Assembly: GCA_004322275.1 (NCBI GenBank)
Contig: SCTA01000040.1
Coordinates: 70,138 to 134,137, forward strand
Origin: a bacterium
GTDB lineage: Bacteria > Desulfobacterota > Deferrisomatia > Deferrisomatales > BM512
DNA length: 64,000 nucleotides
Reading direction: 5' to 3'
Part shown: positions 31,009 to 35,731 of the stretch, piece after piece
How positions within the stretch are numbered: the stretch's first letter is position 1
Layout of the letters: each line of letters opens with the position of its first letter
Notes under the pieces: generated by a model
Database searches by the model: none
What the model was told of the DNA's origin: nothing
What the model saw: the letters and a program-made list of their open reading frames with translations, nothing else
Program-made: the position numbers and the translations under genes

Positions 31009-31097
31009 CGGAATTCCACTGTTTTTTGGGGATTATTTGCGGATTGAATAAATAATAATAATATTCTGCTCATCATCCTTCCTCCGTGGAGGCGCAG

Positions 31098-32630
31098 ATG
31101 ATCAGACTGAGAGTTCTGGCTCCAGTTGCGGTTGTACTAACGATCCTTGCTTTTATCACCGCAGCCGCGGGTTACATGGTTCACCGCAGATGGATATATC
31201 ACGACGCCCGGGAACTGGCCACGTTCTACACCCGGGTTTTCGACGTCTACGTCGATGGCAGAAAAGTCGCCCTGACGGGTTTTCTGGATGTAATCAAAGA
31301 CGATCCGGAGCTACAGAAAGCCTGGCTGGCAAAGGACAGGGACCTCCTTCTGAAACGCTCCCTCCTGCTCGAAGACAAAGTCAAATATAACTTTAAAATC
31401 ACCCACTTTTACTTTCACGACCCGGAGCGGCGGAATTTTCTCCGCGTCTACGATCCGCCGCGCCACGGTGATATCGTGGACAGAATCTCCCTCCTCCAGG
31501 CGGAAAAGACGGGCAAGACGACCAGCGGCATCGAGACGGGCTCTCTGGGCTCCCTGACCCTGAGGGTCGTCCTTCCCTGGGTAATAGACGGAAAAATCGC
31601 CGGATACATCGAGGCCGGGGACGACATCAGCGAGGTCATTCGGCCCGTCGACGACGACAACAAGGCCGAGACGCTGATAGTGGTGGAAAAGGGCAACGTA
31701 ACGAGGGAGAGGTGGGAACGGGGGATGAAAGTCTTCGGCCATTCCCGCCCATACGATTTCTTTCCGAACCTTCTCGTGGCCGCCTCGACGCTGAAGGTGC
31801 TTCCGGAAAAACTGAAGACCTGTTTCAACCACCCGGGGGAGGACAAGCCCCACGAGCACAGGATTACCATCGGTGACGAAAAGTTTTACGTGGCCTCCTC
31901 CCCCATAAAAGGCTTTTTTCAATCGAAAGTCGGAGAGTTCGCTGTCCTCCGGAACGTTACATCCGAAGAACGGGACATGTTCAATCTCCTCAAGATACTG
32001 GTTGTCGGCTACACCCTGGGCGGGGGTTTGCTGACGATACTTTTCAGCGTTTATCTCAGGCGTATCGACAAAAAACTGGAAGCGTCGCAAAAGGCCCTTG
32101 AGGATATGGCCGTTCACGACCCGCTTACGGGGCTTTACAACCGGGCAAAGATGGTCGATTTCATGAAGCACCAGTTCGCGATGCAGACAAGAGACAACGC
32201 CCCCATAAGCGTAGTGATGCTGGACCTCGACTTTTTCAAAAAAGTCAACGACCTTCACGGCCATCAGGCCGGCGACGCGGTGCTAAGTGAGACCGCTAAA
32301 AGGCTGACAGAGATCGCTCGCGAAACCGATCTGGTGTCTCGCCACGGCGGAGAGGAATTTCTCTTCGTGCTGCCCCAGACCGGCATGGAGGGAGCCTTGA
32401 GTCTCGCCGAGCGGGCAAGGAGGAAGATAGAGAGCAAGGAGTTCCCGACCGACGTTGAAGGAAAAACCCTCAAGGTAACGGCCTCCTTCGGCGTCTCCGA
32501 GAAAACCAAAGACGACGATTTCACCATCGAGCAGCTCATCGAACATGCCGACAAGGCTCTCTACCGGGCGAAAACTTCCGGCAGAAACAGGGTTTGCGCA
32601 ATGGAAAAGCAGGTTAAGGAGAGTACCTGA
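31098..32630 (+). CDS. Membrane diguanylate cyclase with Cache-type sensor, copy 1
   Basis: A 510-residue protein. A transmembrane helix at ~7-28, an extracytoplasmic sensor of about 270 residues and a second helix near 300-320 are followed by a GGDEF domain. The active site is G-G-E-E-F at 417, and the inhibitory I-site R-E-T-D lies five residues before it, so both c-di-GMP synthesis and product inhibition are expected. The sensor contains I-T-H-F-Y-F-H-D-P, L-R-V-Y-D-P-P and G-S-L-T-L-R-V-V-L-P-W, like dCache domains that precede MCP or GGDEF modules. ATG 31098 is chosen (GGAGG six bases upstream) over GTG 31086. A close paralogue follows. Confidence 0.9.
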   Translation: MIRLRVLAPVAVVLTILAFITAAAGYMVHRRWIYHDARELATFYTRVFDVYVDGRKVALTGFLDVIKDDPELQKAWLAKDRDLLLKRSLLLEDKVKYNFKITHFYFHDPERRNFLRVYDPPRHGDIVDRISLLQAEKTGKTTSGIETGSLGSLTLRVVLPWVIDGKIAGYIEAGDDISEVIRPVDDDNKAETLIVVEKGNVTRERWERGMKVFGHSRPYDFFPNLLVAASTLKVLPEKLKTCFNHPGEDKPHEHRITIGDEKFYVASSPIKGFFQSKVGEFAVLRNVTSEERDMFNLLKILVVGYTLGGGLLTILFSVYLRRIDKKLEASQKALEDMAVHDPLTGLYNRAKMVDFMKHQFAMQTRDNAPISVVMLDLDFFKKVNDLHGHQAGDAVLSETAKRLTEIARETDLVSRHGGEEFLFVLPQTGMEGALSLAERARRKIESKEFPTDVEGKTLKVTASFGVSEKTKDDDFTIEQLIEHADKALYRAKTSGRNRVCAMEKQVKEST

Positions 32631-32716
32631 TTTTTAGGATACGCAGGGCCGTCGCGGTTTGCCAAACACGTAATTTATAATAGTCTTTGGTTGTCCCCCT
32701 TCCACGCGGAGCGCAG

Positions 32717-34246
32717 ATGATCAGACTACGGGTTTTGCTCCCGGTTACGATTACCCTCGCCGTCCTCTCGGTCTTCCCGATAACTTCCGGGTCCATGGTT
32801 TATCGCAAAATGATCTATCACGAAGCCGAAGAGGCCGCCATCAACCGCGCCAACCTCTACCGCTTCTACGCCGAGAAAAGCACCGCGGGCATCACCGCCT
32901 TTTTAAAGGTCATAAAAGACGATTGCGAACTTCGCGAGGCGTGGCTTTCGCGCGACCGGCAGCGCCTTCTGGAGCGGGGCCGGGAGATACAGGAAGTTGT
33001 CAGGGTTCCGCTGAGGCTGACGCACTTTTATTTCATCGAACCGGACGGCGTCTGTTACCTCCGGGTTCACAATCCCTCTCTCTACGGGGACAAGATTGAA
33101 AGATATTCATTCCTGGATGCGCAGAAAACGGGTGAAACGTCTAGCGGGTCGGAACCGGGGCCTCTGGGGACACTGACGCTCAGGGTGGTCCTTCCGTGGG
33201 TCATCGACGGCAATACGGTTGGTTACATCGAAGGCGGAGAAGACCTCGACCAGATCGTCAAACCGGATCCGGCGCACCATAAGGGAATCACTCTGGTTCT
33301 GTCGAAGAAAACCTCGGTGACAAAGGAGAGTTACGAAGCGGGTTCAAAACTCTTTTCAAGAACCTACCCCTACGACTATTTCGCGAACCGGGTCGTCATG
33401 GCCGCTTCCGTAAACGATCTCCCCGGCGAATTGCCGAAATTATACTCTCCGCCGGAGGAGTATTCGGAACAGGATTTCGAGTTACGGATCGGAGACAAAA
33501 AATATCTCACCGTCGTCAGCGTAATCAAAGACAAACGGGAAGAACCGCTTGGGGAGATAATGGTCCTGACCGACATCTCGGAGGAATGGGCCGCCCTTCG
33601 CCGGTACTTTTATACCATGCTGGGAATCTTCGCCTTCGGCGGAACCGCGCTTACCCTCATCTTCAGCGCCTACCTCAGAAGAATCGACAAAAAGCTCGAC
33701 GTCTCCAGAAAAAGTCTTCAGGAACTGGCGACCCGCGACACGCTCACCGGGCTTTACAACCGCTCCAGGATGACCTCCTTCATGAAGTACCAGCTGGCCA
33801 TGCAGACCCGCTACAAGACCCCGATAAGCATCGTGATGATGGACCTCGACTTTTTCAAGAAGATCAACGACCTTCACGGCCACCGGGCGGGCGACGCAGT
33901 GCTGAAAGAGGCGGCGAAACGGCTGCTTGAGTGCGCCCGCGGAACCGACCTCGTGGTTCGCTACGGAGGAGAGGAATTTCTCGTCGTCCTTCCGCAGACC
34001 GGCATCGAGGGGGCAAGAAACTCCGCGGAGAGGCTCAGGGAGAAAATGGAGGAAAAAGAATTTCCGACCGACGTGGAAGGGAAAACCGTCAAGGTAACGG
34101 CCTCCTTCGGCGTCTCCGAAAAGACCAGTGACGACGACTTCACCATCGAGCAGTTCATCGAATACGCCGACAAAGCCCTCTACCGGGCGAAAACCTCGGG
34201 CAGAAACAAGGTCTGCACGATGGAAAAAATGGGAAGCGAGTGGTAG
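32717..34246 (+). CDS. Membrane diguanylate cyclase with Cache-type sensor, copy 2
   Basis: A 509-residue paralogue of the preceding gene. It has the same architecture: N-terminal helix, dCache-like sensor, helix, GGDEF. G-G-E-E-F is again at residue 417, with the I-site R-G-T-D five residues before it. The sensor differs most in its first half (for example I-N-R-A-N-L-Y-R-F-Y versus A-T-F-Y-T-R-V-F-D-V), while L-R-V-V-L-P-W-V-I-D-G is shared, suggesting different ligands with the same output. The start region (GGAGCGCAG then ATGATCAGACT) is nearly identical to that of copy 1, which supports ATG 32717. The two arose by tandem duplication. Confidence 0.9.
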   Translation: MIRLRVLLPVTITLAVLSVFPITSGSMVYRKMIYHEAEEAAINRANLYRFYAEKSTAGITAFLKVIKDDCELREAWLSRDRQRLLERGREIQEVVRVPLRLTHFYFIEPDGVCYLRVHNPSLYGDKIERYSFLDAQKTGETSSGSEPGPLGTLTLRVVLPWVIDGNTVGYIEGGEDLDQIVKPDPAHHKGITLVLSKKTSVTKESYEAGSKLFSRTYPYDYFANRVVMAASVNDLPGELPKLYSPPEEYSEQDFELRIGDKKYLTVVSVIKDKREEPLGEIMVLTDISEEWAALRRYFYTMLGIFAFGGTALTLIFSAYLRRIDKKLDVSRKSLQELATRDTLTGLYNRSRMTSFMKYQLAMQTRYKTPISIVMMDLDFFKKINDLHGHRAGDAVLKEAAKRLLECARGTDLVVRYGGEEFLVVLPQTGIEGARNSAERLREKMEEKEFPTDVEGKTVKVTASFGVSEKTSDDDFTIEQFIEYADKALYRAKTSGRNKVCTMEKMGSEW

Positions 34247-34309: not shown

Positions 34310-34380
34310 TACGGTAACCTTTTACTGTGAAACTCATCTTTTAATTATTGGCTCTACCTTCAACGCAAGAGGATTAAGTA

Positions 34381-34683
34381 ATGATCGAAATCACTCAAAA
34401 AGCTGAAGAGATGCTCCTCAAGGCCATCGAGGGCCAGGGAGAGAATCTCACGGTAAGGCTCTATCAGGCCGGAGTTGGCTGAGGAGGCCCCTCTTGGGGC
34501 ATGGCTCTGGACGAGCCAAAGGAAAACGACGAGATCGTAAAGTACAGCGGTTTCTCGGTAGCCGCCGACAAAGAGCTTCTCAAGCAGACCGGCGGAGTAA
34601 AGGTCGATTACCTGAGCGGCCCCTTCCGCAAGGGCTTCAGTATCAAATCAGCGGCCGATACCTGCGGAAGCTGCAGCTGCTGA
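34381..34683 (+). CDS. HesB-like selenoprotein (UGA-encoded selenocysteine at codon 34)
   Basis: A 100-residue protein only if TGA at 34480-34482 is read as selenocysteine. Codons 1-33 and 35-100 are in one frame and both sides match the IscA/ErpA/HesB fold: L-T-V-R-L-Y-Q-A-G-V-G-U-G-G before, and V-D-Y-L-S-G-P-F-R-K-G-F-S-I after. Sec replaces the first conserved cysteine of the family. The tail C-G-S-C-S-C (C95, C98, C100) supplies the others. A hairpin follows the UGA at SECIS-like distance. HesB-like selenoproteins with this kind of tail are known from Geobacter relatives. The role may be Fe-S or redox handling; this is inference. AGAGGA precedes the ATG and a strong terminator follows. 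Confidence 0.85.
34480..34500 (+). promoter_or_regulatory. Candidate bacterial SECIS at the in-frame UGA
   Basis: TGA at 34480 is followed four bases later by GCCCC-TCTT-GGGGC (34487-34500), a stable 5-bp stem with a 4-base loop, extendable by GAG/CTC across a bulge. Bacterial SECIS elements lie directly downstream of the UGA within the coding region. The stem here is slightly closer to the UGA than in E. coli fdhF. Confidence 0.7.
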
Positions 34684-34700: not shown

Positions 34701-34729
34701 AAAAAAGCCCGTCAACGACGGGCTTTTTT
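34701..34729. terminator. Bidirectional Rho-independent terminator
   Basis: A perfect 13-bp stem (34701-34713 with 34717-34729) begins AAAAAA and ends TTTTTT around a 3-base loop. It serves the selenoprotein gene and the convergent methyltransferase gene. Confidence 0.9.
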
Positions 34730-34744
34730 GTGTCTTTATATCAG

Positions 34745-35731
34745 CTATTTCGTTGCTAAAAGCAGCCTGCTCGGGGAGCCGGGAATGGTTATCCTCTCCG
34801 TAGGAACAAGCCCCGCAACCTTCATGCAATTTTCCAGTTCGGCGAAACTGTAGCTCCTGCCGGAGCATGTCGCCGCGAGCATGTGGACCCCGAAGAGCGC
34901 CGAGGAAAGAGGCGAGGTCTTGCCGTCGTCGAGAAAGTGCTCGTGAACCGCCAGAACTCCCCCGCTTGAGAGCGCCCCGGCGCAGAGGGTTATCACCTTT
35001 TCCACCTCCGCCTCGCCCAGCATGTGAAGAACCTGGCTGGCGAAGATGAGGTCGTAAGGGCCGCCGAGGCCGTCCTTGCCGAAATCGCCCTCTATGAAAT
35101 TTACCCGCTCGGCGCCGGGTTTTCCTTCGACGAATTTTCTGGCGACCTTCGAGGTTCTGGAAAGGTCGAAGTGAAAGACCTTCGCGCCGGGAGCCCGCGC
35201 CGCGAAAGCCAGCGCGTAGTTTCCGGGGCCGCCGCCGAGGTCGAGCACCGCCTTTTTGTCCGGAAGAGGCAGCAGCGCGGCGATTTTCGGGGCTATCTCC
35301 CTCGTTATGTTCTCCATGCCGAGGATGAAATCGCTTAGCGCCTCTTCGTCCGAGGGCAGCACGTCTTCTTTTCGCAAACATTTGGCGCTGCCGGAGCGCC
35401 AGGTTTTTTCAAGGTCCGCCCAGTCCTGCCACCCGGCGTTTATGTGGTTCATAATCGCCCCTTTGTAGTCGGGAGAACGTTTCACGAAAAATCGCGCCGA
35501 GCTTTCAGAATTTTTGTAAAGCTCGCCCTCTTTCTCAATAAAGCCGAGGGCGACAAGAGCGTTCGCGGAGATTTCGGTCGCCCGCGAGTCGAGCCCCAAA
35601 GCGGAGGATATCTCCCCCGCGCTCTTTTGCCCCTCCGAAAGCGTCTCGAAGAGCCCCACCTTTACCGCCGTGAGAAGCAGCTTCGCGGGCTGGTAGCCGG
35701 AGGCAAGTTTTCGTATTTCGTCGAAGTTCAC
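34745..35731 (-). CDS. O-methyltransferase-like SAM enzyme with winged-helix dimerisation domain
   Basis: A 328-residue protein. Residues ~10-95 form a winged-helix dimerisation domain (K-V-G-L-F-E-T-L; A-G-E-I-S-S-A-L-G-L-D), typical of acetylserotonin/caffeate-type O-methyltransferases. The Rossmann part has V-L-D-L-G-G-G-P-G-N-Y (SAM site) and D-L-I-F-A-S-Q-V-L-H-M. The expected catalytic His region reads V-H-E-H-F-L-D-D-G. The small-molecule substrate is unknown. The protein ends shortly before the shared terminator, and a small membrane-protein gene lies 15 bases upstream. Confidence 0.85.
   Translation of the reverse strand: MNFDEIRKLASGYQPAKLLLTAVKVGLFETLSEGQKSAGEISSALGLDSRATEISANALVALGFIEKEGELYKNSESSARFFVKRSPDYKGAIMNHINAGWQDWADLEKTWRSGSAKCLRKEDVLPSDEEALSDFILGMENITREIAPKIAALLPLPDKKAVLDLGGGPGNYALAFAARAPGAKVFHFDLSRTSKVARKFVEGKPGAERVNFIEGDFGKDGLGGPYDLIFASQVLHMLGEAEVEKVITLCAGALSSGGVLAVHEHFLDDGKTSPLSSALFGVHMLAATCSGRSYSFAELENCMKVAGLVPTERITIPGSPSRLLLATK

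Follow-up and report, generated by a model that had tools for sequence, protein, structure and literature searches.

The question raised by this locus is how a TGA codon lying inside a frame of the IscA/HesB type is read during translation. The window, meaning the whole stretch of 64,000 nucleotides of DNA that was analysed, comes from a genome of 2.88 Mb (completeness 100), and an earlier sequence-only reading had proposed that a TGA at 34480 splits an IscA/HesB frame of which both halves match the fold; frame and position are as claimed. There are 101 codons in frame at 34381-34683, giving the product MIEITQKAEEMLLKAIEGQGENLTVRLYQAGVG-U-GGPSWGMALDEPKENDEIVKYSGFSVAADKELLKQTGGVKVDYLSGPFRKGFSIKSAADTCGSCSC, and the end codon is also TGA (34681-34683). 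Translation with table 11 returns only a 60-aa ORF at 34501-34683, starting from the ATG at 34501, in line with the expectation that standard callers would list the last 61 codons at most. The answer favoured here, and considered very probable, is that the locus encodes a 100-residue selenoprotein of HesB/IscA fold, in which SelB and Sec-tRNA-Sec acting at 34502-34518 would insert selenocysteine (Sec) at UGA codon 34. The features on which this rests are as follows.

34368..34373, + strand: Shine-Dalgarno-like AGAGGA, 7 nt 5' of the ATG (direct sequence reading)
34381..34683, + strand: predicted HesB-like selenoprotein gene, 100 residues, terminator codon TGA
34480..34482, + strand: in-frame UGA, codon 34, predicted to be read as selenocysteine (motif U-G-G-P)
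34487..34500, + strand: GCCCC-TCTT-GGGGC hairpin, a true palindrome, poorly conserved and not the SECIS
34502..34518, + strand: candidate bacterial SECIS hairpin UGGCUC-UGGAC-GAGCCA, 6 bp, 5-nt loop carrying G at its second and third positions, 25 nt downstream of the UGA
34663..34680, + strand: C-terminal Cys tail C-G-S-C-S-C, putative Fe/Fe-S ligands together with Sec34
34703..34729, + strand: intrinsic-terminator-like hairpin GCCCGTC-AAC-GACGGGC, then a T-run (direct sequence reading)

The HesB gene is a lone one, flanked by a dCache_3-GGDEF gene and a convergent O-methyltransferase gene. The latter, at window positions 34745-35731 (- strand), faces the HesB gene, an arrangement that recurs in two further families of this order (L033:1965-2960 and L036:2125-3117); beyond this convergent gene, here and in those two relatives, the neighbourhood of the HesB gene gives no functional clue. 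On the other side lie two similar GGDEF diguanylate cyclase genes in tandem (31086-32630 and 32687-34246, + strand), the second of which carries the dCache_3 domain according to Pfam.

When Cys is substituted for Sec, the protein matches the NF038090 profile (IscA_HesB_Se) over its full length, residues 1-100 against profile positions 1-101 at 1.6e-23, followed by TIGR00049, TIGR01911 and then the SufA, ErpA and IscA models. With the same substitution the scores fall short of the cut-offs of both selenoprotein models, 82.9 against 85 bits for NF038090 and 48.6 against 66.35 bits for TIGR01911 (HesB_rel_seleno), cut-offs that are thresholds for automatic annotation and hold no biological criterion; the Pfam family Fe-S_biosyn (PF01521) likewise scores 21.8 against a gathering score of 26.3. 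Most members of the order also score just under the NF038090 cut-off (68-87 bits), and since a relative from the same order with the same motif (L032) passes it at 86.6, the sub-threshold score is a difference of degree and not of kind. Among 30 aligned sequences the columns C/U34, G36 and P37 are invariant, reading U34-G-G-P here. A profile of 30 relatives searched against solved structures matches AQ_1857, HI1723, IscA and SufA, and the AlphaFold model (mean pLDDT 85, with the Cys tail disordered at pLDDT < 50) finds IscA and SufA as its best PDB matches in Foldseek, at E values of 8e-6 to 5e-5. The C-G-S-C-S-C tail was reported as intact and is seen as such; Sec34 and tail Cys 95, 98 and 100 are candidate metal ligands. 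The claim that this is a HesB-like selenoprotein whose Sec stands in for the first conserved cysteine is upheld by all the tests applied, among them the full-length NF038090 match, the Sec machinery of the genome and Cys homologues that carry Cys at this site. The gene is a divergent member of the known HesB-like selenoprotein family, and nothing about it is categorically new.

Which RNA element would direct the insertion was the point on which the sequence-only reading went astray. It had placed GCCCC-TCTT-GGGGC directly after the UGA as the hairpin of interest and proposed testing it against a bacterial SECIS model, which calls for a stem of 4-16 bp, a loop of 3-9 nt whose first two positions include a G, a UGA-to-loop spacing of 16-37 nt and an MFE <= -7.5 (PMC13188914). 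The palindrome is real, with five perfect pairs at 34487-34500 and -9.8 kcal/mol, and Sec insertion directed from it is assigned only a very small probability. It fails the model, as its loop UCUU has no G and lies 9 nt from the UGA; all five pairs are kept in only 7 of 53 relatives, and 65.9% of cells are paired (27 sequences) against 65.2 and 60.0% when the register is slid by +1 and +2. A hairpin 9 nt past the UGA would sit largely inside the mRNA channel of the ribosome.

The hairpin at 34502-34518, which overlaps the M-A-L-D-E-P codons, agrees with the same model on all four counts (loop UGGAC, 6 bp, 25 nt, -8.5 kcal/mol). Codon and pair counts here include related sequences and are hence non-independent events: the five inner pairs and the loop G are all kept in 51 of 53 distinct Sec copies, 96.3% of cells are paired compared with 16.7-51.2% when slid, and the Ala codon within the hairpin is GCT in 48 of the 49 Sec copies that have Ala, against the 8.1 that local codon use would predict (GCT makes up 10% of Ala codons in the window). 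Random synonymous recoding of MALDEP, drawn from window codon use with Asp use assumed, retains the full stem and loop G in 0.6% of cases. Relatedness is controlled for by compensatory changes and by Cys paralogues. Two pairs of the stem show double compensatory changes: in L021 and L071 an A to V replacement is accompanied by GAG to GAA, turning C-G into U-A with the stem retained, and in L027 A to V together with E to G exchanges two pairs, again with the stem retained. Eight Cys paralogues, each 0.4-0.7 kb from a Sec copy, use GCC wherever they have this Ala, and their stem probabilities lie at 0-0.07 except for one of 0.54.

The two relatives of the 53 without a hairpin in this register, L030 and L031, hold another one, with a GGCC or GGUC loop, 20 nt past the UGA (AUCGAU-GGCC-AUCGAU and UCCAU-GGUC-AUGGA, about 17-33 nt after the first TGA base), and the ALDEP peptide is replaced where this shifted hairpin stands; both were read from the sequence, and that of L031 differs from the minimum-energy fold. 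The predicted fold at 34502-34518 changes once upstream bases are included, and an alternative fold is also predicted for a short stretch starting 9 nt 3' of the UGA. Insertion of Sec by SelB at the 34502-34518 hairpin is a strongly supported prediction.

The frame could also be a pseudogene, that is, a hesB formerly of Cys type that has acquired a nonsense mutation (or shows one through a sequencing error), as might be suggested by a single in-frame stop in a gene that is otherwise intact and by an Rfam scan of the window that returned no RNA family at gathering score, a result that says little on bacterial SECIS elements. The comparative record is strongly against it. The HesB family is found in 31 of 59 related genomes, and the copies of all 11 genus-, family- and order-mates have one TGA each, at the same codon; across the phylum 165 of 297 genomes have a family match, most of the matches listed having one TGA, and the same TGA codon recurs in 53 distinct sequences. 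Both flanks are under purifying selection, with dN/dS (versus L042, L040 and L041) of about 0.02-0.12 on the 5' side of the TGA and 0.17-0.38 on the 3' side. Given the shared codon in the 11 mates and the purifying selection downstream, the TGA is not due to chance, and since the TGA and a hairpin constrained at synonymous sites are conserved across the phylum, a pseudogene is taken to be excluded, its residual likelihood being slight in the extreme. The sequence-only reading had tied such a pseudogene to a genome without selC/selB, or to homologues with neither Cys nor Sec at the site; tRNA-Sec, SelB, SelA and SelD are all encoded, and Cys homologues have Cys there.

Two side observations follow. 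Cross-checking TGA-bearing HesB against selA has little power because selA is present in 273 of the 297 phylum genomes; one phylum-mate that is 98% complete (G078) has a TGA-bearing HesB and no selA match, probably through an assembly gap. A TGA-bearing HesB relative near position 1600 of L043 (G012) has UACT replacing UxGP and lacks a Cys tail in the portion that was read; it possibly represents a divergent selenoprotein subfamily.

Readthrough of the UGA with another amino acid, e.g. Trp or Cys by a near-cognate or suppressor tRNA, draws what favour it has from the fact that Sec insertion itself, and with it the identity of the inserted residue, is deduced from the sequence, in which the frame, its conservation, the machinery and the hairpin constraint can be directly seen. 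This is judged hardly credible, as the genome has a full Sec set, homologues align a Cys at the site and the hairpin conforms to the bacterial SECIS model. TGA is moreover a normal stop here, ending 18 of 40 long ORFs in the window, as is expected of a Sec-decoding organism. The genome encodes a tRNA-Sec (70.1 bits, over cut-off; tRNA-SeC with UCA anticodon (tca) in ARAGORN), SelB (367 bits), SelA (570 bits) and SelD (366 bits). Other selenoproteins of the genome were looked for by family (SelD and Fdh-alpha), yielding three further likely selenoprotein genes (L074, L075 and L013), each with an in-frame TGA and then a hairpin: two formate dehydrogenase alpha genes with the TGA at the active site (R-L-U-H-S-S-T-V-A) and a predicted hairpin 3' of each, and SelD itself with its TGA in the motif SG-U-GAK.

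On the selenoprotein reading, a ribosome reaching UGA codon 34 would receive selenocysteine from SelB carrying Sec-tRNA-Sec and bound to the 34502-34518 hairpin, and translation would continue to the second UGA and stop there, since that codon has no SECIS. The terminal TGA as a second Sec codon is rejected, as the nearest relative, L042, has its stop (TAG) one codon further on, other relatives stop at TAA or TAG, and conservation does not extend beyond this point. Of the three cysteines that bind metal in IscA, Sec would take the place of the first, and the CGSCSC tail would supply the other ligands. Binding of iron or an Fe-S cluster is the most likely activity of the product, or else thiol/selenol redox chemistry linked to it; the fold suggests the biochemical role of an A-type carrier of Fe or Fe-S. 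A wider proposal, which is rather doubtful, is that the order may have a distinct HesB clade (UGGPSW, short CGSCSC) in which Sec would be a metal ligand of an Fe/Fe-S carrier, and that in this family the SECIS, not the protein, would fix A-L-D-E after the Sec site.

Standard calling cuts this gene short; the analysis restores it and assigns the SECIS to the right hairpin. In many phylum-mates (L017, L021, L026, L053, L054, L055, L064 and L067) a Sec and a Cys copy of HesB are neighbours at a distance of 0.4-0.7 kb, and an NF038090 search of the present genome found no Cys-form paralogue. The Cys-form paralogues (L017, L053, L054, L064 and L067) belong to the same family as the Sec gene and share its Cys/Sec column, but they have TGC at the site and have largely lost the hairpin; with adjacent copies in which the hairpin is kept or lost, the family is a clean natural control for the requirements of a bacterial SECIS.

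Tables of HesB-like selenoproteins date from 2005-2006 (PMC1088965, PMC1794560), with members reported in deltaproteobacteria such as Syntrophobacter, Desulfovibrio and Geobacter (PMC1794560), and the family is described by the motif UxGP (PMC13188914). The HesB-like protein of Methanococcus maripaludis was found by mutagenesis and 75Se labelling (PMC11097638), and nitrogen fixation was unimpaired in a Methanococcus disruption mutant (an unpublished observation cited in the same paper). Any HesB-like selenoprotein is a possible test case for the role of the family, and this member is unexceptional. In comparison with the A-type Fe-S carriers IscA, SufA and ErpA (PDB 1x0g, 1r94, 2d2a), the fold and the position of the first Cys are shared; however, these carriers have Cys rather than Sec at the site, a different C-terminal CxC arrangement and about 19-25% identity to this protein. 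With the HesB-like selenoproteins of NF038090 and TIGR01911 the gene has in common the IscA/HesB fold, a Sec in the place of the first conserved Cys within UxGP, a Cys-rich tail and a bacterial SECIS just downstream, and it differs from them in its UGGPSW motif, its short CGSCSC tail and a score just under the NF038090 cut-off.
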